Assembly (NCBI GenBank): GCA_021405325.1
Contig: QWII01000035.1
Location: 90,666 to 154,665, forward strand
DNA length: 64,000 nt
DNA from: Caldilinea sp. CFX5
GTDB lineage: Bacteria; Chloroflexota; Anaerolineae; Caldilineales; Caldilineaceae
Reading direction: 5' to 3'
Translations under genes and position numbers: made by a program
Shown here: positions 2,371 through 20,400 of the stretch, piece by piece
Layout: each line of letters starts with the position of its first letter
Numbering within the stretch: position 1 is the stretch's first letter
The notes under the pieces: model-generated
What the model was told of the DNA's origin: nothing
The model's input: the letters and a program-made list of their open reading frames with translations, nothing else
The model's database searches: none

Positions 2371-3555
2371 TCTAGCCGTACTTGCTTGGGTTGATGTTGA
2401 TTCCGGCCTCACCCCAACAAGGAGCCGAAGAACTGGAAGAACGTGTTGTAATCCCGCGACTGGGTTGATGTTGATTCCGGCCTTCAGCATGAAAGACGCC
2501 GACATCAACCAAGTTTGAGTTGTAATCCCGCGACTGGGTTGATGTTGATTCCGGCTATGCCTAATGCCCCAAGCGCCACAGCGGCCATGTTGTAATCCCG
2601 CGACTGGGTTGATGTTGATTCCGGCAGGTCTCGCTGGCCTGTCACGCGCGCAACATTGTGTTGTAATCCCGCGACTGGGTTGATGTTGATTCCGGCCCGT
2701 TGGTGATAACACCGGAACGAACAGCGCCGAAGTTGTAATCCCGCGACTGGGTTGATGTTGATTCCGGCCGGCCAGTATCGGTTGCATCGCGGCGATACGC
2801 TCATGGTTGTAATCCCGCGACTGGGTTGATGTTGATTCCGGCTTGATGACGCTGGCACGCTGGCGGCGTTCGGCGGCGGTTGTAATCCCGCGACTGGGTT
2901 GATGTTGATTCCGGCTTTGGCAGCCTGGGGAGATGGTCACGGATGCGGCTATGTTGTAATCCCGCGACTGGGTTGATGTTGATTCCGGCCCGACGCCAAT
3001 GGTAACGGGCAACACGACTTTGGCGGTTGTAATCCCGCGACTGGGTTGATGTTGATTCCGGCTGATGAGATCAAGATCACGCAAACGTCGCATGGCTTGT
3101 TGTAATCCCGCGACTGGGTTGATGTTGATTCCGGCCACCGGCTCCTGGGACATGGAAGGGTGGCTGCTGGACGTTTCAATCCCGCGACTGGGTTGATGTT
3201 GATTCCGGCAGGGCCAGCGCTGGTTGTCGATAGTGACGCTCGCTTGTTTCAATCCCGCGACTGGGTTGATGTTGATTCCGGCGTCTTTGCGCATTTTTAT
3301 GGCGTTTTGTAGCATCAGTTTCAATCCCGCGACTGGGTTGATGTTGATTCCGGCGACGCAGTTCCAGCGACTTCAAACTAAGCGCCCCAGTTTCAATCCC
3401 GCGACTGGGTTGATGTTGATTCCGGCTCAGCGAAACGGGAAGACATGGATTGAGGACTGGAAGAGTTTCAATCCCGCGACTGGGTTGATGTTGATTCCGG
3501 CTGTGGCCGGGACTATTGGCCAGCGCCGCAAACATCAGGTTTCAATCCCGCGACT
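2371..3555 (-). CRISPR. CRISPR array, leader-distal segment (16 repeats plus a half repeat)
   Basis: Direct repeats of 37 bp start at 2371 (degenerate first half, the trailer-end repeat), 2445, 2519, 2589, 2660, 2732, 2806, 2879, 2953, 3026, 3099, 3173, 3246, 3318, 3390 and 3465. A half repeat at 3539-3555 is cut by an insertion sequence. Spacers are 33-38 bp and all look unique. On the minus strand each repeat begins GCCGGAATCAAC and ends GATTACAAC (2445-3135) or GATTGAAAC (3173 onward). The ATTGAAAC end is the usual crRNA 5' tag, which sets the direction of transcription. The decayed last repeat on the left and the cas genes and leader on the right agree with minus-strand transcription. This segment is separated from the leader by 6.5 kb of mobile DNA. 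Confidence 0.97.
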
Positions 3556-3587
3556 GGAGGGGGAAACAAACTAAATATTAAGTTACG

Positions 3588-3624
3588 CTCGACGCGACCA
3601 GTTTTGACATCTGGTCGCGTCGAG
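3588..3624. repeat. Perfect 14-bp hairpin near the left end of IS-A
   Basis: CTCGACGCGACCAG at 3588-3601 pairs perfectly with 3611-3624 around a 9-base loop. It lies between the terminal repeat and the transposase start. It could block incoming transcription or bind transposase; neither is shown. Related CGCGACCAG text recurs near the right end (7981-7989). Confidence 0.75.
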
Positions 3625-3898
3625 GTGGAAGAAACGCGACAGATAAAAAAAGTGGTTGCGTGGAACGCGTAGGGATAGCCAAACGGGTCGCGCCTGGGGT
3701 AGGCAACCGCGACGCGAAAAACAATTCGTCGCGTTTTTGCGGATCGCGGCCGCGCCGGGGGTCTACGAATGGGTAACGAGCTGCGACGCCATGACGGGTG
3801 GGGGAAAACCGGCGTCAGCGCCGTAAAAAAGGGTAACATGGGCTTGCTTTTGGCGTAAAATTGGGTTGCACAACCATTTTCGCCAGAAAGGAAAGACC

Positions 3899-4910
3899 AT
3901 GTTACTGCTTCATTTTACCACAATCGGGCGTTGGCTGGCGAGCCAACGCCAAACGCTGCGGCGGTATTGGTGTCGTCTCCGCCGAGCAGGGCGCCCACCC
4001 GTGCTAACCGTTTGTCCGTTGCAACAGTGGCGGCCGGACGAAGGGATGTCTCTCCCCCCGTTCGTCCAAAGCTCGCCGGTAGCGCTGCACTATCTGGCCT
4101 GGTTGGGCCGCCTGGATTGGCAGCACTTCCCCGAACGCCCTGAGCAAATGCCACAAGGCCAGGGCTGGCGTGGCCCAACGCCACAAGCCACGGCGCCCTA
4201 CGTGGCGGCCTTGCTGATCAAAGTGGAGCGGCACTTGCCCCACTTGACCGACCTGCGCCAGTTTCTGGTGGACCACCCGGCCTTAGCCTGGGTGCTGGGC
4301 TTTCCGCTGACCGTCGATGCGCGCTACCCGTGGGGCTTTGATGTGGAAGCTTCGTTGCCCAGCCATCACCACTTTACTCGTGTGCTACGGCAGTTGCCCA
4401 ATGCGGCGCTCCAATGGTTGTTAAGCCGCACGGTGACGTTACTCCAGGCCGAACTACCGGCTGACCATCGGCTGGGTGAGGTGATTTCCCTGGACACCAA
4501 ACATATTCTCGCCTGGGTGCGCGAGAATAACCCCAAAGAGTTCATCAAAGGTGGGCGCTTTCACCAGGAGCGGCAGCCGAAGGGGGATCGCGATTGTCGG
4601 GTTGGGTTTAAAGCGAACGGCAATCAAGTCAAAAGCCAGGCGCCGCCTGTGCCCGCAACGGCGCCGACCCCAACGACCGAAGCCACGCCCGGCAGTCAAG
4701 CGCGTCCCGGCGACTACCTCTGGGGCTATGCCTCCGGCGTGGTCGCCACCAAAATTCCCCAGTGGGGCGAAGTCGTGCTGGCCGAACTGACCCAACCCTT
4801 TGACCAAAGCGAAGTCAGCTACTTTTTCCCGCTCATGACCATGGTGGAACAGCGCTTGGGGCGCCGCCCTCGCTTTGCCGCCCTGGATGCGGCGTTTGAT
4901 GCCTTCTATG
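3899..4910 (+). CDS. IS-A DDE transposase, 5' exon
   Basis: The ATG at 3899 follows GAAAGGAAAG and aligns with the start of the intact IS-B transposase (MLLLHFTT against MLRKHCTT). It holds the N-terminal two thirds of the enzyme, including the first catalytic Asp region (ISLDTKHILAWVREN) and the second (FAALDAAFDAF). A Pro/Thr-rich insert (about residues 255-275) is longer than in IS-B. The frame is interrupted at 4910/4911 by a group II intron. The 1012 bases leave one extra base (G4910) past the last whole codon. The rest of the gene resumes at 7319. Confidence 0.88.
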
Positions 4911-5416
4911 GTGCGACGTGCGCTGCATGATGGTATTGAGTTCAGAACTCTGTGTTAGGGTCAACACAAGCCCATCTGACTTAGTGAAAGGAGAAATCTA
5001 GACACGACCAAAGCCTGTCAGAAAAGCGGACTGAGCCGAACCAAACTAGGCAAGAAGGTGCCGCAAGGGCTGTCCGACAAGGTGAAAGCTAGACTGCCTG
5101 AAGCCCAATCTCTGGCGTCAAAGCGTGACGCTACGGAAAGTTTGGCGAAACCGTAGCCTTGCTGCGCTGGCTGTTAGACGTAGAGACAGACCAGGACCCA
5201 CTCGCACAAGGACACGATTCAGTCAGAATCGGCAAGGAGATGAATGGGCCACCTAAAGCGGACAAATGTATCATCATGACAGACCACGTGATGGCCTACC
5301 TGGTGCGAGCCACAAGGCCACGGAGCCACCGTAGTAGTCAGCAAGCGGGAAAACCGCTTACACGGCGAAGGGTGGCAGGCGACAACGGGTCTAGGCATAA
5401 CCGGGAGAAAAGCGTA

Positions 5417-7213
5417 ATGCTCGATGCTCAAAGTTACCTAAACCTAATCCATGAGAGAGGACAGCAAGGACTTGGCCTCGAACGGGTCTACCGGAATCTA
5501 CGGCGACGCGATTTGTTCCTGATGGCCTATGGGAAACTGTATGCCAATACCGGTGCAATGACCGTCGGCGTCAACCCGCACGACACTATTGACGGCATGT
5601 CCTTAGACCGCATTGACCGCATCATTGCTGACCTGGCAACCGGTGACTATCACTGGACGCCCGTTCGGCGCACCTATATCCCGAAAGCCAACGGCAAACA
5701 ACGACCCCTGGGTGTGCCAGGTTGGAAAGATAAGCTCGTCCAAGAAGTCCTCAGACGCATTCTGGAAGCGTACTACGAACCACAGTTTTCCACCCATTCG
5801 CACGGCTTCCGCCCCCAACGGGGTTGTCATACCGCGTTGGCGGAAATCGTGCAAGGCTGGAAAGGGACACGCTGGTTTATTGAGGGCGACATCAAGGGGT
5901 GTTTCGACCAGATCAACCACGAGATTCTCTTGCGTCTCATCGGTGCGAAGGTCAAAGACAACCGCTTGCTGAAGTTACTCAAAACCATGCTCCGGGCAGG
6001 CTATATGGAAGCTTGGCAGTACCACCGCACCTACTCCGGTACGCCACAGGGTGGCATCCTCAGCCCCCTGCTCGCCAACATCTACCTGAACGAACTCGAC
6101 CAGTTTGTTGAACAAGAACTGCTGCCTGCGTATAACCGCGGACGAAAACGACAGCAAAACCCGACGTATGCGGCCATTCTTCGTGGCCGAGCGCTGGCCA
6201 AAGCGACCGGCAACCGGGAAACGTATCAACAACTCACCCAACAGATGTATCGGACGCCGTCACGAGCGGCCATCGACCCGAACTATCGCCGCTTACGTTA
6301 TGTCCGCTATGCCGATGACTTCCTCCTCGGCTTTGAAGGCCCAAAAGCGGAAGCCGAAGCCATCAAGCAACGCCTACGCACCTTCTTGGCCGAACGACTG
6401 GGCTTGGCGCTATCGGCAGAAAAGACCCTCATCACCAACGCCCAGGAAACCCCCGCACACTTCCTGGGATACAACATCCATATCTGTTGGGAGAATGCAC
6501 GAATCACGGCCCAAGTCAACGGAACGAAGCGCAGAGCGGTTAATGGCTTGCCCATGCTCCGGGTGCCACCGGAAGTCAAACAACAATGGCTACGCAAGTT
6601 CAGCACCAACGGAAAACCGGCCAGACGACCGGAACTCCAAGAGCGAACCGACTATGACATTGTGATGTGGTATCAAACCCAATGGTCAGGACTGGTCAAC
6701 TACTACCAAATGGCGGTGAACGTCACGTCACTCCACCGCGTCAAATGGACGATGGAAGTCTCGTTGGTCAAAACCCTCGCCAACAAACACAAATGTAGCG
6801 TCAGAACGGTCTATCGGAACTACCGCGATTGCCCAAAGGGCGGGCTGAAAGGCATTCGGGCCACCCTCCAGCGAGAAGGAAAACCACCTTTGGTGGCTAC
6901 CTTTGGTACCAAGCCTGTCCACTATCAACGGGTGACGACGGAACTCAACGACAACCACTTTGTTCCCTACGGCGCCACTTCACAACTCTCCGACCGGCTA
7001 CAAGCCGAACAATGTGAACTATGTGGTTCGACCAAGAACATTGAGGTGCATCATGTCAAAAAGTTGGCGGATGTCCGCGAGCAATACCGCAAAGGCCACA
7101 AACCGGCCTGGGTGGTCAAGATGCTGGCGATTCGCCGCAAGACCCTGGTGGTCTGCCGCGAATGTCATCACCGCATCCATGCCGGCACCTATGATGGCCC
7201 CAAACTCACCTAG
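5417..7213 (+). CDS. ltrA: Group II intron reverse transcriptase/maturase with HNH endonuclease
   Basis: The 598-residue protein splices and mobilises its host intron. From the ATG at 5417 (GGGAGA upstream) it shows the RT fingers/palm motifs (PKANGKQRPLGVPGWKDK, then FIEGDIKGCFDQINH), the motif GTPQGGILSPLLANIYLNELD, and the catalytic YADD in YVRYADDFLLGF. A maturase X domain follows. The C-terminal HNH/En domain has paired cysteines and histidines (CELCGSTKNIEVHHV, CRECHHRIHAG). All key residues are intact, so the intron may still be active. The frame is open further upstream to 5159, but those residues lie in intron RNA domains and lack family similarity. Confidence 0.93.
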   Translation: MLDAQSYLNLIHERGQQGLGLERVYRNLRRRDLFLMAYGKLYANTGAMTVGVNPHDTIDGMSLDRIDRIIADLATGDYHWTPVRRTYIPKANGKQRPLGVPGWKDKLVQEVLRRILEAYYEPQFSTHSHGFRPQRGCHTALAEIVQGWKGTRWFIEGDIKGCFDQINHEILLRLIGAKVKDNRLLKLLKTMLRAGYMEAWQYHRTYSGTPQGGILSPLLANIYLNELDQFVEQELLPAYNRGRKRQQNPTYAAILRGRALAKATGNRETYQQLTQQMYRTPSRAAIDPNYRRLRYVRYADDFLLGFEGPKAEAEAIKQRLRTFLAERLGLALSAEKTLITNAQETPAHFLGYNIHICWENARITAQVNGTKRRAVNGLPMLRVPPEVKQQWLRKFSTNGKPARRPELQERTDYDIVMWYQTQWSGLVNYYQMAVNVTSLHRVKWTMEVSLVKTLANKHKCSVRTVYRNYRDCPKGGLKGIRATLQREGKPPLVATFGTKPVHYQRVTTELNDNHFVPYGATSQLSDRLQAEQCELCGSTKNIEVHHVKKLADVREQYRKGHKPAWVVKMLAIRRKTLVVCRECHHRIHAGTYDGPKLT

Positions 7214-7222
7214 TCGCCGGAA

Positions 7223-7256
7223 AGCCGGATGACGGGAAACTGTCACGTCCGGTTTG
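7223..7256 (+). ncRNA. Group II intron domain V catalytic hairpin
   Basis: A 34-base hairpin begins with the AGC catalytic triad (7223-7225), has a GAAA tetraloop, and closes with a GGTTT strand. It lies just past the maturase stop codon (7213), where domain V is expected. Domain VI-like sequence follows to 7318. Confidence 0.8.
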
Positions 7257-7318
7257 GAGGGGGGCGGTTGGAAAAGTACTCACTCAGAGCAACTCGCTGG
7301 CCGTCTACCCTACTCTAT

Positions 7319-7870
7319 GAATATTTCCATCCCAAGACGCCAGACACACCAGGCTTTGCGGCGGTCCCCCTCCGTTTCGATGAGACGCGGGGCTTTTCCC
7401 CCGACGGCTTGCCCTTGTGTGAGGCCAACTTGCCGATGCCGCTCAAAGCCACCTACGTGGATCGCACCCATCTCTTTGTCCATCAGTGTGGGCGCTATGC
7501 CTGTCCCTTGCGCTACCCCACCCAAACGGCGCCCACCTGCCCCATTGCTCACGCCCGTTGGGAAAAAGGGGGCTGTGTGACCACCATGGCAACGAGTATC
7601 GGTGCACGCCTCCGTCATCAACTCGACCGCCAAAGTGCCGACTATCAGCGCATCTATCAGCAACGCACCGCCACGGAACGGATCAATAGTCAGGCTGTGG
7701 CGTTGGGCATTGAGCGACCTCATCTGCGCAATCAACGTTCTATTGCCAACCAAAACACACTCATTTATATCGTGATTAACTTACGCGCACTCGATCGGGT
7801 GACCAACAGCAAGCAACACGCCTCACCCTGGCCTCGGCGACTCGCTTCGTTCATCCGTCACACCGCATAA
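7319..7870 (+). CDS. IS-A DDE transposase, 3' exon
   Basis: It continues the transposase after the intron with EYFHPK, then sequence collinear with IS-B (GFAAVPLR, GLPLCEANLPMP, CGRYACPLRYP). It includes the C-terminal signature YQQRTATER, which resembles the Y-x2-R-x3-E motif around the catalytic Glu of IS4/IS5-like DDE enzymes. It ends in RRLASFIRHTA at 7870. It has no start of its own, so it is made only if the intron is spliced, and the reading frame across the junction is doubtful (see intron entry). Confidence 0.85.
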   Translation, partial: EYFHPKTPDTPGFAAVPLRFDETRGFSPDGLPLCEANLPMPLKATYVDRTHLFVHQCGRYACPLRYPTQTAPTCPIAHARWEKGGCVTTMATSIGARLRHQLDRQSADYQRIYQQRTATERINSQAVALGIERPHLRNQRSIANQNTLIYIVINLRALDRVTNSKQHASPWPRRLASFIRHTA

Positions 7871-8052
7871 GAAGGGACATTGTTGGTGGCAAAATGGTTG
7901 TGCAGCCTTTTTTGTAGATCCGCAAATTGTCCATCCGTCTCGTGTAAATAATTCATGAAATAATGCTAAATTTAATTCGTCGCGACCAGTTTAATTCGTC
8001 GCTCCCCCTTTTTATTTCGTTTTCCCCTCCGCGACTGGAGGTTAGGACAAAT

Positions 8053-8289
8053 AAGAAACTGGTTCCGGTCAAAGGGGACACGTTGGAAAACCAGCCCCAC
8101 AAGAAGCGAGCAAACGGGACAGAAAAAGAACTGGTTCCGGTTGGATAAGGCCGAAAAGCAAACGGGTTCCTCAATACCGACGGTAAGCGGGACAAAAAAA
8201 GAATGCGTCCCGGTTTAGCCGAAAGAACAACGCAGTTGCAGGCTCGTGACTCATCGTGAGCGGGACGAAAAGAAAACTTGCCCCGGTTT
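8053..8289. repeat. Four subterminal repeats in the left end of IS-B
   Basis: Copies lie at about 8053-8070, 8114-8142, 8188-8217 and 8260-8289. The shared pattern is CGGGAC, an A-rich stretch, then CTGGTTCCGGTT or TGCGTCCCGGTTT. They are direct repeats about 70-75 bp apart, between the terminal repeat and the transposase start. Transposase binding sites are a reasonable guess. Confidence 0.65.
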
Positions 8290-8364
8290 AGGCGTGTAAC
8301 ATGGCGCTCCTTCCGGTACAATAGGTTTGCCACAACCAGCATTATCCCTGAAAAGGAGCAAACC

Positions 8365-9855
8365 ATGTTACGGAAGCATTGTACCACAGTGACGCATTGG
8401 CTTGTTGACCGCATCCGGTTAGTGTGTGCGTTTATCGGCACCAAGTGCCGACCGCACCCCGTTCCCTGCTGGCAACTCGACAAACGTCCACCGCTGAATC
8501 ACCTGGCGGCCCTGCCGCGCCACCAACTGCCAGGTTTTGTACAAGAATCAACGGTGGCCTGCCATTACCTGGACTGGCTTGGCGCGCTCGACTGGGAACA
8601 CTTTCCCGAAAGTCGGTGCTACCCAGCCGAAACTGACCGGCACCGTGGCCCTGTCTCGCAACCAACGGCCCCTTATGTTGCGGCCTTCTTGGTAAAGGTT
8701 GATCGACAATTGCCTCACATGGCGCAGTTGCGGCGTTACCTCATCGAACAACCAGCACTGCCGTGGCTCTTTGGTTTCCCCCTTGTGGCCTCGACCGCTT
8801 TCCCTTGGGGGTTTGATGTGGTCGCTAGTCTACCTGCGCATCGCCACTTCAACCGCGTCCTACGACAACTGCCCAACCGGGATCTCCAGTGGTTGTTGAG
8901 CCGTTCGCTTGACCTGCTGCGTCCTTTATTGCCGCCGGGTACGCTGCTGGGTGATGAAATCTCGCTGGATACGAAGCACATTATCGCCTGGGTGAAAGAG
9001 AACAACCCCAAAGAATTTATCAAAGGGGGGCGCTTCCATAAAGAACGACAGCCTAAAGGCGATCCGGACTGCAAAGTTGGCTTCAAGGCAAACGCCAACC
9101 AAACCGCCGCTGCCCCCAAAACCGACGGCAAGCCTGGCAGCAAAGCGCGCGTGGGAGAGTATTATTGGGGGTACGCCAGCGGTCTGGTCGCCACCAAAGT
9201 GCCACACTGGGGCGAAGTGGTGTTGGCCGAACAGACATTACCCTTTGATCATGGCGAATTGAGCTACTTCTTGCCTCTGATGCGCCAAGTCGAAGCGCGC
9301 TTGGGCCGCCGCCCACGCTTTGCCGCCCTAGATGCCGCCTTCGACGCCTTCGACGTCTACGCCTATTTTTATCATGCGGGTGGCTTGGCTGCGGTGCCGT
9401 TACGCAATCCCGGTGAACCCTTGCGCCAATTCACGCCCACGGGACTCCCGCTCTGTGCTGCTGGCTTGCCCATGCCACGCAAAATGCGCTATCGTGACCG
9501 CACTCACCTGCTGCATCACCACTGCGCTCGGTATGCCTGTCCGCTTTGCTTTCCCGCAGCCACCGCAACCCCTTGCCCCATTGACCACAAAAGTCGGGCC
9601 AAAGGCGGCTGTGTCACGGCAATGCCCACCAGTATCGGTGTACGCTTGCGTTCGCAACTCGATCGCAAAGGCGAGCGCTTTCAACAAATCTATCACCAGC
9701 GCACCGCCACGGAACGGATCTTTAGCCAAGCGCTTGAACTTGGCATTGAACGGCCTAAACTGCGCAATGGTCGTTCTATCGCCAACCTCAACACCTTGAT
9801 CTATCTAACCATCAATCTGCGCACACGACAACGCATTCGCCAACCAGCGACCTAA
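8365..9855 (+). CDS. IS-B DDE transposase
   Basis: The 496-residue transposase starts at ATG 8365, preceded by AAAAGGAG. Candidate catalytic residues are D in EISLDTKHIIAW, D in FAALDAAFDAFDVYAYF, and E in YHQRTATERIF, the last in an IS4/IS5-like Y-x2-R-x3-E arrangement. A Cys-containing segment, CARYACPLCFP, precedes it. The N-terminal third (GFVQESTVACHYLDWLG, PTAPYVAAFLVK) is shared with IS-A. There are no frameshifts, so the element could be active. The frame remains open upstream to 8278, but that part overlaps the subterminal repeats. Confidence 0.92.
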   Translation: MLRKHCTTVTHWLVDRIRLVCAFIGTKCRPHPVPCWQLDKRPPLNHLAALPRHQLPGFVQESTVACHYLDWLGALDWEHFPESRCYPAETDRHRGPVSQPTAPYVAAFLVKVDRQLPHMAQLRRYLIEQPALPWLFGFPLVASTAFPWGFDVVASLPAHRHFNRVLRQLPNRDLQWLLSRSLDLLRPLLPPGTLLGDEISLDTKHIIAWVKENNPKEFIKGGRFHKERQPKGDPDCKVGFKANANQTAAAPKTDGKPGSKARVGEYYWGYASGLVATKVPHWGEVVLAEQTLPFDHGELSYFLPLMRQVEARLGRRPRFAALDAAFDAFDVYAYFYHAGGLAAVPLRNPGEPLRQFTPTGLPLCAAGLPMPRKMRYRDRTHLLHHHCARYACPLCFPAATATPCPIDHKSRAKGGCVTAMPTSIGVRLRSQLDRKGERFQQIYHQRTATERIFSQALELGIERPKLRNGRSIANLNTLIYLTINLRTRQRIRQPAT

Positions 9856-10106
9856 CGCATCTACTATCCCCCGAGGTCACTATTCCCACCAGCACCCGTT
9901 GTTTCCCTTTCTGGTTGTGGCTCGGCGCATCGACCCTGGTTACTCTGGCTCGATGCGCCAACTTTTTTTTGCCCACCAACGGTTTCACTCCCTTCGTCCC
10001 TTTTTCCTCTGGTGTCCCAGCAAACCGGGGCCACTTTCGTCCTTTTTTACGCAATTTCTATGTCTTCTTGTTGCCTTTTCGCAACTTCTATCTTGTCCTA
10101 ACCTCC

Positions 10107-12518
10107 GCGACTGGGTTGATGTTGATTCCGGCTAATGTTTAGGGGAGGTCAAATGTACGTACTACAGTTTCAATCCCGCGACTGGGTTGATGTTGATTCC
10201 GGCACGAACGCAATCCCGTATCCAGCATTGAAGGCAATGTTTCAATCCCGCGACTGGGTTGATGTTGATTCCGGCAAGACACTAAAAAAGAGTATGTGTT
10301 GGACATCGAGTTTCAATCCCGCGACTGGGTTGATGTTGATTCCGGCTTTCAAGTTGTAACACGAGTACTGTTAGCTGCTAAAGTTTCAATCCCGCGACTG
10401 GGTTGATGTTGATTCCGGCCTCTTGTGGAACGGCGTCGCCTGGGAGAGCAAGCCCGGGTTTCAATCCCGCGACTGGGTTGATGTTGATTCCGGCCCGGTC
10501 GAAGGTGTACCAGCCGCTTGGCGCCCTCACGGTTTCAATCCCGCGACTGGGTTGATGTTGATTCCGGCCCAGTGCCCCACGATTTAGCGCCGGCGCCGCT
10601 GGTGTTTCAATCCCGCGACTGGGTTGATGTTGATTCCGGCGCTGTGCTGATAGGCCGCTATGCTGCCCTCGCGGTAGTTTCAATCCCGCGACTGGGTTGA
10701 TGTTGATTCCGGCTTGATTTGCGCAAATGACGGAGAATGCAATTGGGTGTTTCAATCCCGCGACTGGGTTGATGTTGATTCCGGCTGCCCAAAGCACCCC
10801 GGAAGATGTCTTTTGAGTAGTTTCAATCCCGCGACTGGGTTGATGTTGATTCCGGCACGACTTGGCGAACAGGGAAGGTCTTCAGATGATTGTTTCAATC
10901 CCGCGACTGGGTTGATGTTGATTCCGGCGTTACAACCCAAGCGGTTATCCGTACAGGTACAACTGTTTCAATCCCGCGACTGGGTTGATGTTGATTCCGG
11001 CTAGCAAGCCGGGTGACATTTACTATGTCTACGACTTGTTTCAATCCCGCGACTGGGTTGATGTTGATTCCGGCGCGCAAGCCTTCAATGTCGATTTGTT
11101 TGGAGAGAGGTTTCAATCCCGCGACTGGGTTGATGTTGATTCCGGCGATTTTCCGTTGATTCTAGGACTCTATTTTACGGTTGTTTCAATCCCGCGACTG
11201 GGTTGATGTTGATTCCGGCTTCCGGTGTGGGAGTTACTCCTTTTGGCATTTGATCGTTTCAATCCCGCGACTGGGTTGATGTTGATTCCGGCAAATCATA
11301 GAAGCGATGTAGCTCATCTGGTACAGTGGTTTCAATCCCGCGACTGGGTTGATGTTGATTCCGGCAACCAGATTCATTTCAGTAGCTCTGAGAGACGGAT
11401 GTTTCAATCCCGCGACTGGGTTGATGTTGATTCCGGCGTCAATTTGTGCAGACTCACATCTTTCGTATAGTAGTTGTAATCCCGCGACTGGGTTGATGTT
11501 GATTCCGGCAAAACGATTGGGTTGCTACAGGCTGACCTAACAAGTTGTAATCCCGCGACTGGGTTGATGTTGATTCCGGCGACTTTTTTTGTTCTACTTT
11601 TGAGATGAGACTTGTTGTAATCCCGCGACTGGGTTGATGTTGATTCCGGCTTGCGGTACTCGGCTGGGGTGGGGGTGAGCGAAGCTTGTTGTAATCCCGC
11701 GACTGGGTTGATGTTGATTCCGGCACAGCCCCTATTCGTGGTCGGGTTACATCGATTTGTTGTAATCCCGCGACTGGGTTGATGTTGATTCCGGCCTGGA
11801 AAGTTGCATCGGGCGAACTCGCCAAATCTCTGTTGTAATCCCGCGACTGGGTTGATGTTGATTCCGGCCCAGGTCAGCCACATAGCCGGCATAGGTGAAC
11901 ATCAGTTGTAATCCCGCGACTGGGTTGATGTTGATTCCGGCCCCCGGTCGCCGCTTTTTGTTATCTTCGCTGCTTCATCGGTTGTAATCCCGCGACTGGG
12001 TTGATGTTGATTCCGGCTTCCCTCTCATCGCACAACACTCTCTATGTTGACCTGTTGTAATCCCGCGACTGGGTTGATGTTGATTCCGGCCTCAAATTAC
12101 TTATTTGGTTTAACCAAAGTTCAGTTGTAATCCCGCGACTGGGTTGATGTTGATTCCGGCGCGTGTCCCTGTGTAAGGGTTGCTACTATCAAGCAAGTTG
12201 TAATCCCGCGACTGGGTTGATGTTGATTCCGGCCTGAATATCAGTCAACTCAGATTCAAACAATTGTGTTGTAATCCCGCGACTGGGTTGATGTTGATTC
12301 CGGCAACTCCACAAAGCACCAGGGTTGTCTAGCAGTGTTGTAATCCCGCGACTGGGTTGATGTTGATTCCGGCTTTCAAATTAAGTTACCAGACGGAAGT
12401 TTGGTAGGAGTTGTAATCCCGCGACTGGGTTGATGTTGATTCCGGCTGAGCCTGTAGGAGCGATTGATACAGTAGTAATATGTTGTAATCCCGCGACTGG
12501 GTTGATGTTGATTCCGGC
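10107..12518 (-). CRISPR. CRISPR array, leader-proximal segment (half repeat plus 33 repeats)
   Basis: It begins with the hexamer copy (10107-10112) and the second half of the split repeat (10113-10132). Full repeats follow, starting at 10167, 10239, 10310, 10383, 10458, 10532, 10604, 10677, 10749, 10820, 10892, 10965, 11038, 11110, 11183, 11256, 11329 and 11401 (minus-strand end GATTGAAAC). Those at 11473, 11544, 11614, 11688, 11759, 11832, 11905, 11981, 12054, 12124, 12197, 12268, 12337, 12410 and 12482 end GATTACAAC. Spacers are 32-39 bp. The repeat at 12482-12518 is leader-adjacent, so spacers near 12500 are the newest. I saw no duplicated spacer. Confidence 0.98.
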
Positions 12519-12941: not shown

Positions 12942-13238
12942 CTAGATCAGATAAAGCGTCGGCTCCGCCGGCGGCGGGTCGCCCACTGTCTCCACCTTGT
13001 GGCGACAACTGCCGCAGAGGGCGTAGAAGCGCACCGAATCGTGGCTCTCCTCCAGATGGCGCTCCAGTTGACGGCGCAACTGCAAATATTGCTTCTCGCT
13101 CAGAAAACACTCAAAGAGGCTATACTGCGTCCACTGTCCATAGCCACTCAACGTCTTATGCACCTTCGCCCGCCGTTTATCCGAGCTAATATCATAGGCG
13201 ATAACGTAAAAAGTTGTCTCTTTTGCCAACCGTTTCAT
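12942..13238 (-). CDS. cas2: CRISPR adaptation endoribonuclease-fold protein Cas2
   Basis: The 98-residue protein pairs with Cas1 as the spacer integrase scaffold. The ferredoxin-like Cas2 fold is recognisable from FYVIAYDISSDKRRAKVHKTL, with the Asp at the end of the first strand, and from GQWTQYSLFECFLSEKQYLQL. Length and order (last adaptation gene before the leader) are typical. It ends 49 bases before the predicted leader promoter. The cas1 stop lies 88 bases upstream, so the two genes are not overlapping here. Confidence 0.95.
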   Translation of the reverse strand: MKRLAKETTFYVIAYDISSDKRRAKVHKTLSGYGQWTQYSLFECFLSEKQYLQLRRQLERHLEESHDSVRFYALCGSCRHKVETVGDPPPAEPTLYLI

Positions 13239-13326
13239 CCTTTACATACCGTGTACCGTGTTGCGTATTCCGTGTTGCATCTCCACAACCAGAACTTCTT
13301 GTCTTCTTGTCCTCTTGTCTTCTTGT

Positions 13327-14403
13327 CTACCGCACCTGAAACGCACGATAGGTTGGGATTTCCCCAAGCAGGAACTTGGCAAGCAGGCGCGCTTGCAATT
13401 CCAGGCAGCGGCGGTAGGTGGCTTTATAGCCGAAGACGGGGTGTTGGATTTCAGTGTTGAGGCGCGCTTCAAATTGTTGGAGGAAGAGCTTGCGACCAGC
13501 GGCGGTCAGTTGCCAGGCGCCCAGTTGTTCCTCAAAATGTTTGGCCTGCAGGATCTGCTTGTTGATCACCGTCAGCACCACTGAATCGACAATCGGTGTG
13601 CGCATCTCTTCCATCAGGTCGAGCGCCAGGGCCGGTTTGCCGTAGCCTTCGCTGTGGAGAAAGCCGATGTAGGGGGCGAAGCCGACAATTTGCACCGCGC
13701 TGAGGACATGGTTCAGCAACAGCGTATAGCCAAAACTGAGCAGCGCGTTGACCGGGTCGGTGGGCGGGCGACGGTGGCGACCGGTGAAGCCGAGATCCTG
13801 TTTGAGCAGCGGGCCAAAGCCGCGAAAAAAGGCGGCGGCGCCGGCCCCTTCCATGCCCTGGAGCGTCCCCAGCGCCGAGCCTTGTTGCGGGCGGGTCGGA
13901 TCGAGCGGGCCATCCTCTTCGATCTCCAGGCGATCGACCTCGCTGATCATGGCGGCCAGCGTTTCGGCGGCGGCGGTCAGCGTGGCCGATTGGGCCGGAT
14001 CATCTACGGTACGGTTGCTGCGCAGGAGCAGCGTGCGCTGGTTGTGGAGCTTGCCGCGCACAAAGCGGGCCGCCAGTGTCACCCGTTGGCGATAATTTTC
14101 ATGGGCGCGAAATTGGGCGGTGCGCACAAAGACATTTTTGGTCACTTCCGGCGCCAGTCGCCCCTTGAAGCGCCCCCAGAAGTCACAAAAACAGATGTCG
14201 GCGTTCTGCTCAAGCAGGGCCAGCAGCGCCGGCGTGGTGACGGTGCTGTCGCCCAGGACGACGACCTGTTCCACCTTCATGAGGGGAATCGTCACTTTGC
14301 GCGCTTCGGCGCCGGTCTCCTGGTTGGCGGGAATTTTGACGGTTAGTGTCTCGCCGTCCTTGTTGACGACGCTATACGGTTCAGTTAAGTAAAGAGTAGT
14401 CAT
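13327..14403 (-). CDS. cas1: CRISPR integrase Cas1
   Basis: The 358-residue integrase joins prespacers to the leader end of the array. The ATG at 14403 follows AGGAGT. The N-terminal beta domain (LGDSTVTTPALLALLEQNADICFCDFWGR, residues about 50-80, quoted only in part by family knowledge) is followed by the helical catalytic domain. That domain has the conserved Glu in GMEGAGAAAFFRGF, the His in IGFLHSEGYGKPAL and the Asp in LALDLMEEMRTPIVD. The protein is intact and of normal length. Together with cas4 and cas2 it forms the only adaptation module seen, serving an array flanked by both type I-D and type III-C effector genes. Confidence 0.96.
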   Translation of the reverse strand: MTTLYLTEPYSVVNKDGETLTVKIPANQETGAEARKVTIPLMKVEQVVVLGDSTVTTPALLALLEQNADICFCDFWGRFKGRLAPEVTKNVFVRTAQFRAHENYRQRVTLAARFVRGKLHNQRTLLLRSNRTVDDPAQSATLTAAAETLAAMISEVDRLEIEEDGPLDPTRPQQGSALGTLQGMEGAGAAAFFRGFGPLLKQDLGFTGRHRRPPTDPVNALLSFGYTLLLNHVLSAVQIVGFAPYIGFLHSEGYGKPALALDLMEEMRTPIVDSVVLTVINKQILQAKHFEEQLGAWQLTAAGRKLFLQQFEARLNTEIQHPVFGYKATYRRCLELQARLLAKFLLGEIPTYRAFQVR

Positions 14404-14411
14404 GTGTACTC

Positions 14412-14542
14412 CTATGGCTGGTTCCCACGCTCAGCGTGGGAATCCAGAGGGGACGCACTGCGTCCGGCGTTTTGACGTACCGAGAGGTGGACGCGGAGCG
14501 TCCTGTCGGCATTACGCCGCTGAGCGGCGTAACGAGCAAGGG
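14412..14542. repeat. Cluster of four short palindromes between cas1 and cas4
   Basis: Four consecutive stem-loops fill the gap: TTCCCACGCTCAGCGTGGGAA-type (about 14422-14442), GGACGCACTGCGTCC (about 14451-14465), GGACGCGGAGCGTCC (about 14489-14503) and a TTACGCCGCT/AGCGGCGTAA hairpin (about 14512-14532). Their arms differ, so they are separate hairpins. They resemble dispersed intergenic REP-like palindromes. They could reduce read-through or stabilise mRNA ends between the two genes. Confidence 0.75.
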
Positions 14543-14563
14543 CGGCTTATGGGCGCCAATCGC

Positions 14564-15154
14564 TCAATTGGACAATGTTTGGAGCGCTGCCGTCTCTGTC
14601 GGCAAGCAAACCTCGATCAGGCTGCACCCACGACAGCGCTCCCGGTGATCGGTGTGGGTGGGAAGCGTGCCGCGCGCTAATGTCCATTGCATCTGTTGGA
14701 TATATTGGCGGGTCTGGTCGCGCAAGGCTGGGGTAAACACGACCGTCACCCGGCGGCGGCTGCCAAAGTAGAAGAGCGCACCTTCGCTGATCGTTTTGCC
14801 GGTCATCTCTTCCAGACAGAGCGCCTGGGCGCAGAGTTGGGCTTCGTCGTTGCTCCATTTGCCCTGCTGCCCCTGTTTGTACTCCACCGGCACGAGCCGC
14901 CCGTCGGCCTGTTCTTCCAGCAGGTCGGTGTAACCGGTGATGCCGAGGGTGTGGCTATAGACATAGACGCGGCGGTGGATGGTGACGCCGCTGGGGATGG
15001 TCTCGTAGCCGGGCGTGTGGGCGCGTTCATGGTTGATGACGCCGCGCAAGACATGGGCGTTTTCTTTCATCTCGCCCTGGACATACATGTACCAAAAGCG
15101 CCGCGGGCAATAGGCGAATTGGTTGATGTAGGAGAGGGGTAGTAGATCGTTCAT
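14564..15154 (-). CDS. cas4: CRISPR adaptation exonuclease Cas4
   Basis: The 196-residue RecB-like nuclease trims prespacers and helps select PAM and orientation. The start at 15154 follows AAGGAGGG. The Fe-S cluster cysteines are present: one near the N-terminus (FAYCPRRFWYMY) and three near the C-terminus (RCRGCSLIEVC). Nuclease residues include GYTDLLE and PVEYKQG, followed by the QLCAQALCLEE helix (QxxxY-like motif IV). It has a normal size. Cas4 is standard in type I-D loci and uncommon in stand-alone type III loci, which suggests the adaptation genes came with the I-D part. Confidence 0.94.
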   Translation of the reverse strand: MNDLLPLSYINQFAYCPRRFWYMYVQGEMKENAHVLRGVINHERAHTPGYETIPSGVTIHRRVYVYSHTLGITGYTDLLEEQADGRLVPVEYKQGQQGKWSNDEAQLCAQALCLEEMTGKTISEGALFYFGSRRRVTVVFTPALRDQTRQYIQQMQWTLARGTLPTHTDHRERCRGCSLIEVCLPTETAALQTLSN

Positions 15155-15244
15155 TTGTACCCTCCTTTCTAGCGGATTGAAATTTCCGGGAAGTGGCGTG
15201 AAAAATTTGTGCCAATAGCCGTGCTGTGATGCCAGATCTTTATG

Positions 15245-16087
15245 CTATACAACTTCCCAAATGCCATACGGACCAATGCGAAACGTGCCAGCGCCAGTCA
15301 TCGTACTGCCGGGGGCATAGCAGATCTGTACTTTGGCAAGCTGCCAATGATGTCCATTTTGGGTAGCTCGTTCCCAGCCGGTAAGCGGTTCGACTGCACC
15401 TGCTAAGGGGGGGCGCGGGTCGGCACGGACGTGCGCCGATACAAATTCAGCCGTGGACAGTGTGATCATAGGATCATCCACATGTGTGGGGGGAGCTAGC
15501 GGCAACGGTTGCACCCGTCCCCAGCCATAACCCCGTTCGGCGCCAAAACATAGCTGCGTCAGCGCTGCCTGCCAGTCACCTAACACGGCGCCATTCGACA
15601 ACTCCTGTTTTACAAAGAGATCGCCTTTGAGATAAACCGGCAACGCCGTCGTCGCGCCGGGGCCGGGACGACTATATGGGCGAACAAACTCGGTTTCATG
15701 GAGCAGCGCATCTTCTGCACTTTGTTGCTCATAATTTAAGGCTGTGCTGGCATAACTGCCGAAGAAGCGATAGGCGAATAATTTATCATTCCACGGGTAG
15801 TGGGCTGTCAGCTCCTCAGCCGACGCTACTGCTTTGTCGGCATTCTGCGGCAGCGCCGGGTAAAGATAGCCAAAACGGAAGTTCTCGTGTAGTGTCTCTC
15901 CGCTTTGAACATAGCTTTGCGTGTCTGCTCCCTTGCTAGTACGGCGCGTCAAACGCTCGGTAAGCGCCGCCCAAACATTTTTGCCCGGTACATAGCCACG
16001 CGTCTGCATTAAGTTGCCAGTTTTGCGCCAGCCGATGTGCATCGGTGTACAGAGGCGGAAGGCTAGCGTGTATTTATGCCAACTCAT
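15245..16087 (-). CDS. RAMP-superfamily subunit of the type III-C-like effector
   Basis: The 280-residue protein opens like a RAMP domain (YTLAFRLCTPMHIGWRKTGNL) and has a glycine-rich loop GAERGYGWGRV near residues 190-200. Such subunits bind crRNA in Cas7/Cas5-type positions. Its start overlaps the cmr5 stop by 4 bases, so it belongs to the csx11-cmr4-cmr5 operon. The set has Cmr1-, Cmr4-, Cmr5- and Cmr6-like genes but no obvious Cmr3, so this may be the Cas5/Cmr3-position subunit. That assignment is by elimination, not by sequence. The gap to cas4 is 90 bases. Confidence 0.75.
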   Translation of the reverse strand: MSWHKYTLAFRLCTPMHIGWRKTGNLMQTRGYVPGKNVWAALTERLTRRTSKGADTQSYVQSGETLHENFRFGYLYPALPQNADKAVASAEELTAHYPWNDKLFAYRFFGSYASTALNYEQQSAEDALLHETEFVRPYSRPGPGATTALPVYLKGDLFVKQELSNGAVLGDWQAALTQLCFGAERGYGWGRVQPLPLAPPTHVDDPMITLSTAEFVSAHVRADPRPPLAGAVEPLTGWERATQNGHHWQLAKVQICYAPGSTMTGAGTFRIGPYGIWEVV

Positions 16088-16464
16088 CTTTCTGCCTCCG
16101 CTTTGGCGCCATAACGCGCATAGATGAGCGTCTGTTCGTAAAGCTCTTTGACCAGAAGCAAGGTGTCCAGGTCAGCACAAACGGTGTCAGCAAAGAATTT
16201 AAGCGCATTTTGATCCGTGATCTCACTGGCGGTAAAAGCCGGCAGTTCTTTGAGCAAGGCATAGAGGTGAGGACGTATCTTTGCCACCAGATCTTTCTCC
16301 TGACGACTACTGCGCGAAAAGAGAAAGAGGAGACAGGCATAAACGCCCTGTTCTTGTAAAACGCCCAACGTTTTAGTGATCAGGATTTCGCACTCGGCTT
16401 TGCCGGCGGCAACGATCCCCTGGGCAGATTGGGCGGCAAGTTGGTCTAGGTTTAAACGGTTCAT
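16084..16464 (-). CDS. cmr5: Small subunit Cmr5 (Cas11)
   Basis: The all-helical protein of 126 residues is the size and place of Cmr5, which forms the inner filament of type III effectors. It has the helix GVYACLLFLFSRSSRQEKD and a C-terminal LIYARYGAKAEAE helix, as in Cmr5-family proteins. It overlaps cmr4 upstream and the RAMP gene downstream by 4 bases each, a translational coupling that fits a stoichiometric complex. Confidence 0.8.
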   Translation of the reverse strand: MNRLNLDQLAAQSAQGIVAAGKAECEILITKTLGVLQEQGVYACLLFLFSRSSRQEKDLVAKIRPHLYALLKELPAFTASEITDQNALKFFADTVCADLDTLLLVKELYEQTLIYARYGAKAEAER

Positions 16465-17438
16465 TGGCCATTCCCTCCATTTAACAGACGCACCCGGCCA
16501 AAGCCGCGCGTCCCCATGCCGCCGATGCCCAGGTGTTCGGCCAGTTTTAGCCCGGCTTCCACCACCTGGATTGGCTTGTGCCAGGTTTCACCTAAAGAGT
16601 CACCAGCGTTGTGCGTATAGATCTTCTTTTTCTCGCCGTTTGCTTCCTGTTTTTCTTCAACTTTGCACTTTTTAGCTGTCAGCGGGAAGTTGTTGCGATA
16701 GTCGTCCTGCACTACATCCAGCCAAAGCAGGGCCGCGCGCGGAATGGCTTCGTAGGTGAAAAGCGCCTTGTCAGCGGCGGCGCCGGTCTCCGGGTCAATG
16801 CTGACCGAAGTGCGCACTTCCAAATTACTGTTGACGATCTGTCCAAATAATTTATCGGCAACAAGAACAGCGCGGGTTTTGATTGTCTCCGGCACGGACG
16901 GGATGCTCTGCGGCCAAGTGAACGGCGCATTCGCTTTGGGTAACATGAGCCAACCGAGGTTGAGATGACTATGGTTGCTGAGCGCCTGTGGCAGGTGCAC
17001 CTGTTCGCCAGGATCAGTTGCGTTTTCGTCAAACTCCGCCAGCACACTAGGGCAAGTTACCCACACCGGACCGGCCAGCGAATGGACCGGAAAGAGCAAC
17101 AGGCGCGCATCGCCAATGCTCACCGTGCCGCTTTGGCCGCCAGCTTGCCCGCGAATATAGCCAAAGGTGTAGCAAATGGGGCATGTTCTATCGGCGCAAT
17201 GACCTTCTTTGCCCTTCTCCTGGTTCTCTTGACCGGCGCCGGCGCACCGACGGCTTTCATAGTGGTAGGCGGCGTATTGGCGAATGGCGCCGTGCAGGGC
17301 TGTGCCAGGAATTTTGGGCAGTTTTGTGCCCGGCTCGCGCACAATGCTCAGATCGACGCGGCCCAACCGGTTGCCCCCTGTCCCCACATGAACTGGGTCG
17401 AGGGTCATAAGAAAAAAATGTTGATGGTAATAGTTCAT
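16461..17438 (-). CDS. cmr4: Backbone RAMP and target RNase Cmr4 (Cas7)
   Basis: The 325-residue Cmr4-like Cas7 subunit would form the crRNA-binding backbone and cut target RNA at 6-nt intervals. Typical features are PVHVGTGGNRLGRVDLSIVRE near the N-terminus, KIPGTALHGAIRQY, GDARLLLFPVHSLAGPVWVTCPSVL, and the C-terminal glycine loop GIGGMGTRGFGRVRLL. Asp29 in GRVDLS sits where the catalytic Asp of known Cmr4 lies, so RNA cleavage is probably kept. A Cys-rich insert (CADRTCPICYTFG, residues about 80-93) may bind zinc. It overlaps csx11 by 4 bases. Confidence 0.9.
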   Translation of the reverse strand: MNYYHQHFFLMTLDPVHVGTGGNRLGRVDLSIVREPGTKLPKIPGTALHGAIRQYAAYHYESRRCAGAGQENQEKGKEGHCADRTCPICYTFGYIRGQAGGQSGTVSIGDARLLLFPVHSLAGPVWVTCPSVLAEFDENATDPGEQVHLPQALSNHSHLNLGWLMLPKANAPFTWPQSIPSVPETIKTRAVLVADKLFGQIVNSNLEVRTSVSIDPETGAAADKALFTYEAIPRAALLWLDVVQDDYRNNFPLTAKKCKVEEKQEANGEKKKIYTHNAGDSLGETWHKPIQVVEAGLKLAEHLGIGGMGTRGFGRVRLLNGGNGQ

Positions 17439-20400
17439 GATGAAGCGTCCTCCTCGGTGCGTTGGGGCTTCTGTTTCATAATGCCCATATAAAGTTCAAT
17501 TACATCGGCCAGCAGACCGGAGACGGCAGCGGTTGTGACCACGGTTAGATCCTCACACGTCGGCCGCTTTTTCCATTGTGCATTGTACACGGCAGCAGAA
17601 CAGAGTTGGCGAAAGGTAGCATTGACCGCCCAGGTGTCACGCTTGGTCTCTACCAGATCGCGCAGGGCATAAATTTGGCTGGTGGTCAACCCATTCTCGT
17701 CGGAAAGGAGATCCCAAACCTTCTGTATTGTCGCCAGATCATCAAGCAGATAGGGACGGGTGGGGTGGGTGAGGCGCTGCCCAGTAGCATCATAGGCAAT
17801 CTCAAAGCGCTGTTCGCTGATGCCCAGCCATTGGACGTCAAAGGTAGCGGCGGTGAAGTAGATCTGGTCGCCCTTCTGTAATTCGGCAGCATGGATAAGC
17901 CAGCACTCCGTAGTTGTGCCATCACTTTGGGGGCGCCGCCCTTTGACGATGCGCTGGCGGCGGCTGACATCATTTTGTACAAATACATAGGGATACCACT
18001 GATCAGGTGTGACGCCGTCACCCATGACCGCCGGAATGTGCCAGGTGAAGGTGCGGCTTTGCTGTTCGAGTTCGACACTGATGGTGATGGTGAATTGTTG
18101 CGTCCCAGTAGCCAATGGTTTACCTGCTTTTGGCAATGGGCCTGATTGCACTTGTTTGACAATCCACGGTGTATCACCGCCCAACGCTGTTTGCTGTAAC
18201 ATCTGGCGGCCGGCGTCAAGGGCCACACGCAAGGGTGTGCGCCGATGAAAGTAGACGGCGCCCAGGTGGAGGGGCAGCCGGTTGCGCACCTTGCCCATCT
18301 CCCGTTCATACTTGGTTTTGATGGCGTCGATGACGGTCAGCGCTTTGTCCGCAGGAACCAACGCCATAAAGGTGCGCGGCTCGGCGAGGATAGGGATGGC
18401 GGTGGAATAGGCAGTAGCTTGGTAGGTAACTCGAACAATGGAGCAACCAGTGGCCAGGTTGCGCTGTTCCTTCCTAGTCTTATCTGCGTTGTATAACACT
18501 GGACTTTGCCGTGTCTCTATGAATCGCTTGTTGATATATTCTTCGATGAAAATGGCAGATGTAGCTGAATCTATATAAATTTCTGGTTCTGCCCCCAAGC
18601 AGCGCGCTAAATAGCAAAAATTGTCAGCACTAATAAAATATCCCCCAGTTCCATCAGCAGTGGATGGATGCCAGACTAGGCTCAAGTTTGTACCATCTAA
18701 CTCAAGCTCATACACATGGAATGCACCAAGGTTAGGTATTGGATTAAACCACAAGAAAAGACGACGACGATCATCTGCTAAAAGCGTTGAAAAGGTGTCT
18801 TGTTCGATTTCCTGCCAAAACGTTCTGGTTGTTTCCCAGATACGGCGACTGCGGGCAAAAGAAACAGGCTTTTTCATTGTTTCAACCAGCCTGCCATTTA
18901 ACCAATCATTTAGTTCAAATTGACCTACCACCAATGCCGCTCGCCCATTTACATCTGCTACTTCATCGAGCCAAATGGTATTAGTCAAAGCAACAGTATT
19001 TGTAGCCCAGGTTTGGGAACGATCCGCCCTTCGCTGTTCACAGGTTTGACAAACGGCACGCTCTTGCGCTTTACATACTTGACAACTGTCAGGCTTTTCG
19101 CCCGTTTTGTGGCGTTCGTGCTGGTGTTTTTTCCAGTGCTGTGGCCCGTACCCTTGCAGCCGTACACCACAGACAGTACAGATTTCTCCGCTTATTTCGA
19201 CTTCCTGCCATGTTTTGTTCAATAGTTCCAGATCGGAACGTAAGGGTGGTTCATGCCAATCCGTAATTTCTGTGAGACGGAGTTCTCTGCCACGAAGCGG
19301 CCCACTAAGTACAATTACAGGAGCTAACTCGCCGTCTAGAGGACTTTTCTCATGGGCATTGGCGAAACGGTGCGCTAACAAGCGTTCTAACACTAGAGAA
19401 TCTCTATCTTCACCTGTGTATAGCTGTAGAAAGTCAAGTTCTTGCGTATCGCTAGCCAGCGAAGGTACAACGAGTACACTACCATTTTCATCACGGTATA
19501 TTTCGTTACCGAGAGGTAATTCTGCTTCAACTATAACCTGTACAGCATCTAGCGCCTGATTTAGGGCATCACGTCGGGCTAGTAAATCACTAATTCGATG
19601 AACTTGACTCAAATAACCTAGCCCATCGTATCTTATCGAGAGCAGTCGCCACCGCATGTCCCCGAGCTTGGGTAACTTTCTTTCAAAAACAGCTTTTGCG
19701 ACTGAACTCTTGAAAAGAGCAGTGATTGTACTTGCATAATCCCACAAATTAATCTCATTGATTGGCCACTGTGTATCACCGAGACCTAGTTTGAGGATTG
19801 TTTCTGCTGTAGTCAAGAAATTTGTTCGCTCTTCTTGCGTCAGCGCCCAACAGGTACTCAAAGCATCGTTTAGCAATTGCTGGCGCTCTACGGCCATCAC
19901 ATAGGGTGCGACTGCCGTCTTTTCATACCCAAAGGCAGTTGCCACACACAGGTGTTCCCAAGGCGTCTGCTGCGCTTCCACATTTTCCTTCTCGGCGCCA
20001 GAAATCTCACCATGTGAAAGGATAAGCAACGCTGGTAGTTGCACCTTCGGCGTTGATAGCCAGTATGCCAGCGCCGACTGGCGTTTGTACCCATCTCCAT
20101 TTAGCTGATAAAAGAAATCGTCCCAAAAAAGCGCCAGCAGGTCTGCAATAGACCAACTTTCATCTACAATAGACAGCTTGATGTCCCGAAATTTGGTTTC
20201 AAGACTCTGCTGCTGTCTTTTCTCTTCTGCATAAATAGCATCTCGGGTTTTCTGAAAATTCTCCTCTGCTTCTTTGGCTGCTTTTTGTAACTTTTCTCGT
20301 ATCGTGTGTCTTTCTTTGGGCGGAACAGCAGTCATGTCAAAGCTAGCTAATGCTTCCTGGCTACGTTCGTAGGTTTCTTTGAGAGAGTGTAATTCGATCT

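Follow-up and report, generated by a model that had tools for sequence, protein, structure and literature searches.

Two insertion sequences in a single CRISPR repeat

The stretch of DNA analysed here, hereafter the window, comprises 64,000 nucleotides of contig QWII01000035.1 from Caldilinea sp. CFX5 and contains an array of clustered regularly interspaced short palindromic repeats (CRISPR), one repeat of which, at 3539-10132, is split by two insertion sequences (IS), IS-A and then IS-B. A copy of the target lies before, between and after the two elements, as read directly from the sequence:

3539-3548, + strand: left 10 bases of the interrupted CRISPR repeat, GTTTCAATCC (from the sequence)
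3549-3556, + strand: target duplication, copy 1, CGCGACTG (from the sequence and the ends of relatives)
3557-8029, + strand: IS-A, with ends GAGGGGGAAAC...GTTTTCCCCTC, 4473 bp including an intron
8030-8037, + strand: target duplication, copy 2, CGCGACTG, between the elements
8038-10105, + strand: IS-B, with ends GAGGTTAGGACAA...TTGTCCTAACCTC, 2068 bp
10106-10113, + strand: target duplication, copy 3, CGCGACTG
10114-10132, + strand: right 19 bases of the interrupted CRISPR repeat, GGTTGATGTTGATTCCGGC (from the sequence)

Joined together, GTTTCAATCC, one CGCGACTG and GGTTGATGTTGATTCCGGC make up the 37-bp repeat of the array. An earlier note on this DNA had described two elements inside a single repeat with a target copy at three junctions, which the sequence confirms, and had held that removal of both elements and of the extra target copies gives back the 37-bp repeat, which is borne out by the outer parts and one 8-mer. 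The 10 bp CCGCGACTGG are common to all three junctions, and the window by itself is compatible with a duplication of 6 to 10 bp. Because the clean ends of relatives are mostly GAGGG...CCCTC, the duplication in the window is probably 8 bp (CGCGACTG), with element ends GAGG...CCTC; GCGACT, which the earlier note took as the duplicated target, lies within this 8-mer and is probably not the whole of it. Relatives have target duplications of 6 to 9 bp. Left and right ends match at 17 of 25 positions in IS-A and at 19 of 25 in IS-B.

The transposases of IS-A and IS-B share 63% identity over 473 columns and are sisters in our sampled quick tree (Shimodaira-Hasegawa-like approximate likelihood ratio test, 99), and their terminal repeats differ; they are thus different elements, and two insertion events took place, in support of the two separate hits proposed earlier. 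Our argument that this arrangement did not arise by chance is made from its recurrence in relatives.

From these comparisons it is likely that IS-A and IS-B are two members of an insertion sequence family, IS1182-like and of DDE type, that integrates preferentially into CRISPR repeats; the copies found here come mainly from Chloroflexota.

Sampling of the family

In a protein search that scored 7998 candidates, 3064 relatives had E <= 1e-10, the best 120 of them being listed. Scanning species genomes yielded 63 loci, 52 of them labelled Chloroflexota, and whole-genome searches found matches in all 46 genomes behind 46 of these loci. Matches were also found in 22/400 genomes from the phylum of G002 and 28/396 from its class (searches that scored at most three candidates per genome), in 12/158 genomes from the class of G022, and in 1/111 from the phylum of G039 (labelled Trueperaceae), namely G039 itself; these genome sets overlap. 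The plasmid collection gave no match to the family. Viral contigs gave one relative, L001 (IMG/VR), a full-length copy in a single CRISPR-like unit at the contig end; its presence on an IMG/VR contig hints at carriage by a virus.

Transposase copies were located in 80 regions, in L001 and in the window, short fragments being in part left outside the region set. Ends were called clean when the element began with GAGG, its two ends matched at 13 or more of 25 bases and the duplication measured at least 6 bp, and an array was called automatically where at least 3 repeats lay within 70 bp of a clean copy. Copies with a transposase match under 900 bp and opposite-strand noise were kept out of the counts. 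L001 does not enter the CRISPR count, and L271 and L272 (members of the same family) were dropped from the IS1182 control; the 32 mapped copies described below leave out L156 but do include fragments under 900 bp (L188, L205, L213). Junctions were placed by hand, since the automatic finder at times picked out intact repeats (for example at L173, L182 and L190).

Position and orientation within the repeat are constant

The centre of the duplicated target falls at repeat position 13.5-15.5 in 21/21 hand-curated sites, and the host repeats differ between them. These sites comprise 20 of the IS-A/IS-B family (the window counted once, L001 and L214 included) and one of a second lineage discussed below. 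All 32 mapped copies or fragments (25 loci; 21 genomes and the window; hand-curated junctions) share one orientation, the repeat end close to the junction being, in all 32, the one upstream of the transposase gene. Judged by sequence alone, 20/24 repeats name this upstream end as the GTTTCAAT end. The earlier note had asked whether the target CCC-GCGACT-GGG itself recurs; it does not, as the duplicated stretch varies by host, and what recurs is position and orientation in the repeat.

A partial family copy, L214 (in G550), sits in the palindrome of a 29-nucleotide repeat, on the same side relative to the transposase, with target copies that differ at one base. In appearance this repeat is of type I-E, for which a different Cas6 would be expected. 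If the upstream repeat end carries the 5′ handle of the CRISPR RNA, as is usual for repeats of the kind found across the family, the transposase gene would run antisense to the CRISPR transcript. In the window the cas genes adjoin the array on its right side, which is where one would expect the leader if transcription runs leftward.

Insertions favour CRISPR arrays

The earlier note proposed tabulating insertion sites across genomes, and this tabulation gave a strong preference for CRISPR repeats. Clean ends are present in 31 of the 80 copies that reach at least 900 bp, and 18 of these 31 lie directly in CRISPR arrays by the automatic rule; L196 is a 19th by inspection, which the rule missed because the adjoining repeats are interrupted as well. 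Among the other 49 copies, whose ends are not clean, 11 carry the transposase within 700 bp of an array. Controls were 30 loci each for DDE_Tnp_1 and IS1182, taken with 1500-bp flanks from searches of 26 host genomes; an array anywhere in these flanks was found at 0/30 DDE_Tnp_1 loci and at 1/28 IS1182 loci (after the two same-family loci were dropped). Arrays at 29/80 family copies versus 1/58 controls give a Fisher p of 1.8e-7.

Several observations weigh against a family dedicated to CRISPR repeats in constant orientation. Clean insertions outside arrays make up 11/31, and 49/80 copies have no clean ends, 20 of these 49 with a contig end within 300 bp of the transposase match. L139 and L140 have identical transposases, one being a clean insertion outside arrays and the other CRISPR-inserted; one clade of 15 tree rows contains 5 rows from loci outside arrays and none labelled CRISPR; and there are near relatives among the copies (L193-L195). 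L156 adjoins an array, with the repeat at its junction intact. In 4 of the 24 repeats the sequence fails to name that upstream repeat end (three tie and one leans the opposite way by a single base), so that orientation in these four is taken from junction position alone. The earlier note had reasoned that copies at unrelated sites with no CRISPR preference would make the window's case chance: unrelated sites are indeed seen, at the 11/31 above, and the CRISPR preference is still present. The preference for CRISPR is strong, not exclusive.

What does the transposase recognise?

Comparison of the copies shows that the element joins about 10-12 bp in from one repeat end and duplicates 6-9 bp there, in a constant direction in every mapped CRISPR case. 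The transposase may recognise mainly the conserved, GTTTCAATCC-like repeat end, with the palindrome either helping or merely coinciding; short repeats (iterons) at the left end make the element asymmetric, and these may give the fixed orientation. The insertions would cut the array in two, and spacers beyond the elements may lose leader transcription. Recognition of the repeat end is the mechanism that we favour, though we lean towards it weakly and it is unproven. A weight matrix built from 17 CRISPR sites holds most of its information in the first 10-12 bases, and, in transposase orientation, 6 of the 11 off-target sites rank among the top 3.3% of local positions in their resemblance to the start of the repeat (combined p 0.01, corrected for three registers). 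This recognition step is weakened by the fact that all 11 off-target sites score under the 17 CRISPR sites in transposase orientation, and that 5 of the 11 (L142, L144, L157, L180 and L212) score higher in the opposite orientation, strongly so for L144 (12.3).

It could instead be that the transposase recognises any hairpin or cruciform and that CRISPR repeats are simply abundant hairpins, which we consider unlikely. The target centre lies within 1 nucleotide of the best hairpin centre of the repeat in 16/21 sites, with 1.9 expected at random positions; hairpins at the 13 CRISPR sites tested exceed local background (combined p 5e-5); and IS1272, of the IS1182 family, is reported to target inverted repeats, palindrome targeting by some IS1182 members being cited in the same paper (PMC5678879). 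However, no hairpin is shown at the 11 non-CRISPR clean sites (p 0.998), and this difference from the CRISPR sites argues against pure stem-loop targeting. In six rows the hairpin centre lies at 16.5, yet the target centre there is still at 13.5-15.5; a symmetric hairpin would not predict the fixed orientation; and the target in the window and the family is duplicated, not replaced.

Guidance of the transposase by a host factor that binds the repeat (such as Cas6 or Cas1-Cas2) is rather improbable in our judgement. It would fit a position and orientation that are fixed although the repeat sequence varies, and also the off-target likeness to the repeat, which is weak and inconsistent in orientation. 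One target edge would lie 2-3 bp from the Cas6 cut in the transcript. The partial copy L214 speaks against such guidance, with its 29-nucleotide repeat, presumably of type I-E, and the different Cas6 expected there. That insertion is random and survives in arrays because these are dispensable is very improbable: arrays are indeed non-coding, but the other transposases of the host genomes were not found in arrays (0/30), and random insertion would reach spacers and both orientations, neither of which occurs among the 32 mapped copies or fragments, L156, beside an intact repeat, being the sole array-side exception.

Origin of the tandem

The split repeat of the window was probably hit twice. Should the left end be the recognised one, IS-A probably came second and entered the left duplicate made by IS-B, because after a first insertion only the left duplicate keeps the recognised left end. 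The earlier note had the second hit falling into the duplicated hexamer; this is the simplest order but unproven; two neighbouring repeats, each hit once and then joined by a short deletion, would give an identical picture. Such hits in two neighbouring repeats, with deletion between the short CCGCGACTGG copies, seem to us an improbable origin: 8-10 bp of identity would permit slippage, and L196 (in G170) does have two elements in neighbouring repeats with one spacer between them, but this route requires an additional step. Against it also stands an apparent second tandem at the left edge of L182, made up of another element's right end followed directly by CCTCGC and then by the L182 element; just the last bases of this left-hand element are present on the contig. 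It is unlikely that IS-A and IS-B moved in as a ready-made pair, since the middle target copy does not differ from the outer two.

L196 has three insertions in near-consecutive repeats, one of them short, with no space for a transposase and with ends matching those of a full element. The target copies around one of its full elements differ.

Transposases, intron and left-end iterons

The features inside the two elements are as follows:

3899-4910, + strand: IS-A transposase, part before the intron, holding the counterparts of D202 and D323 of the predicted DDE triad
4911-7313, + strand: group II intron within the IS-A transposase gene, its 5′ boundary (4911) read by eye
5159-7213, + strand: intron-encoded reverse transcriptase/maturase with an HNH domain
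7314-7870, + strand: IS-A transposase, part after the intron
8045-8287, + strand: four left-end iterons of about 25 bp each, spaced 72, 73 and 73 bp, in IS-B
8365-9855, + strand: IS-B transposase, 496 amino acids, predicted DDE triad D202, D323, E450

A group II intron of 2.4 kb within the transposase gene accounts for the length of IS-A, 4473 bp. The intron has matches to RVT_1 (3.3e-37) and to a maturase domain (1.4e-13), and Rfam RF00029 matches with 64.6 bits at 7220-7313; its splicing would presumably restore the open transposase frame of IS-A. The locus is nested, with an intron (just past the second predicted catalytic D) in an IS in a CRISPR repeat.

The best named match of the IS-B transposase is the IS1182 NCBIfam model NF033551 (E 4e-7, 29.3 bits), and its DDE_Tnp_1 match is weak (E 0.018). 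The curated cut-off of NF033551, 270 bits, is not reached by IS-B or by the first part of the IS-A transposase (18.2 bits), and the second part has no match to this model. Across 19 aligned members D202 and D323 are nearly invariant and E450 is invariant; their catalytic role is putative. The predicted transposase structure is weak (mean predicted local distance difference test score 63) and gave no fold match at E <0.001, the best being ISCth4 at 0.18; a sequence search for solved relatives gave none that convinces, its one match being a ribosomal protein at E 0.88. Three other kinds of element were considered and rejected: an IS110/IS1111 DEDD transposase, as no such family appears among matches of the transposase open reading frames (ORFs) up to E 10; and, from the transposase and intron ORFs, the sole element ORFs searched, a casposon (no Cas1 match) and a CRISPR-associated Tn7-like transposon (no TnsB, TnsC or TniQ match).

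The strongest internal repeat has a lag of 72-75 bp at the left end of 13/21 elements (with one tie, L162) and at the right end of 0/21. The 13 are IS-B of the window, L001, L139, L144, L157, L162, L168, L173, L176, L180, L200, L205 (whose left-end repeat signal is no higher than the highest shuffle) and L206. Four of these, L144, L157, L162 and L180, are placed outside arrays, so iterons are no marker of CRISPR use. They do set the left of the element apart from its right. Array units average 71.8-76.5 bp (15 loci), close to the iteron spacing; this likeness may be due to chance, the spacing being about seven turns of DNA.

A second IS1182-like lineage

The sole positive locus among the controls, L268, is a 610-amino-acid IS1182-like element (best stretch 111 bits, below the cut-off) at the same spot of the repeat. 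Another repeat of its array contains the apparent end of an IS-A/IS-B family member, whose transposase lies outside the view. Searching 158 genomes for relatives of L268 gave 21 loci, 8 of them in or beside arrays (L268 and L278, which are the same; L281; L286 and L294, parts of one place; L289; L291; L292; L296), with position and orientation as in the IS-A/IS-B family at the junctions inspected. It is possible, as a tentative proposal, that homing dedicated to CRISPR repeats has evolved in two or more diverged IS1182-like lineages, for which the repeat would be an attachment site of fixed position and orientation across dissimilar repeats and CRISPR types. Arrays would then be their main genomic home, immune memory would be cut repeatedly, and the iterons may help the transposase complex to read the array.

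The array and cas locus of the window

The surroundings of the split repeat are:

2380-12518, no strand assigned: CRISPR array with a 37-bp repeat, mean unit 72.5 bp, a degenerate first unit before 2445, split by IS-A/IS-B
12942-20857, - strand: cas2, cas1 (type I-D model), cas4, two unassigned ORFs, a Cmr4-like RAMP (repeat-associated mysterious protein) and Csx11

The repeat is GTTTCAATCCCGCGACTGGGTTGATGTTGATTCCGGC; its 28-bp core occurs in 49 copies, one of which is the right half of the split repeat. Two repeat variants form three blocks over 2445-12518, with GTTGTAATC ten times, GTTTCAATC 23 times intact and GTTGTAATC again 15 times, and the split repeat falls within the GTTTCAATC block. 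All 47 spacers of the window are different and none match IS-A or IS-B; one has a 16-base match (E 0.007) to L061. The cas locus is apparently mixed, with cas2, cas4 and a cas1 that matches a type I-D model beside the Cmr4-like protein and Csx11.

Relation to known systems

If the preference for CRISPR repeats is as we propose, a family of mobile elements makes the immune memory bank of its hosts its landing site rather than reaching it by chance, which would provide a natural route to split or silenced arrays and a marker for broken CRISPR annotations in Chloroflexota metagenomes. It would also mean that a site-specific DDE-type transposase is aimed at a host-variable class of sequence, with target recognition that is directly testable.

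Arrays broken by mobile elements have been described before: 59 CRISPR arrays have repeats broken by IS elements or miniature inverted-repeat transposable elements, and Thermoanaerobacter arrays hold repeated IS110 copies, an IS110 dimer and an IS1634 (PMC4852346). Bifidobacterium arrays are interrupted by transposases (PMC5626976), CRISPR repeats identical to an end of IS1000 occur in Thermus (PMC6352166), and a CRISPR-repeat-binding protein of Sulfolobales also binds IS110-type transposons via a repeat-like motif (PMC10883916). Our literature search (with supplements, most subscription journals and bioRxiv outside its scope) found no family that inserts at a fixed position and orientation in CRISPR repeats. 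That IS elements enter such repeats is known; a family homing to them is not, as far as searched.

The cases in the main text of PMC4852346 are described as separate ones and, unlike the IS-A/IS-B copies, not as a family of fixed position and orientation. IS elements that inactivate cas genes likewise disable CRISPR-Cas, and that work also cites IS elements inserted in CRISPR loci and prophages integrated in arrays (PMC10359306), but the targets there are cas genes, and array homing does not appear in the text available. IS1182 itself (NF033551), the best named match of IS-B, is matched far below its cut-off, and 27/28 IS1182 controls, which include loci above as well as below that cut-off, have no array in their 1500-bp flanks. 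The IS1111/IS110 seekRNA elements (PMC11187229) likewise select specific targets, using a DEDD enzyme and a guide RNA, whereas the elements described here have a DDE-like transposase, terminal inverted repeats and target duplications. IS1272, an IS1182-family element, is reported to target inverted repeats (PMC5678879); the targets here are inverted repeats at the CRISPR sites and not at the 11 other clean sites. IS1272 is reported to replace a stem-loop and leave no target duplication, whereas the IS-A/IS-B family keeps both halves of the repeat and duplicates 6-9 bp of it.

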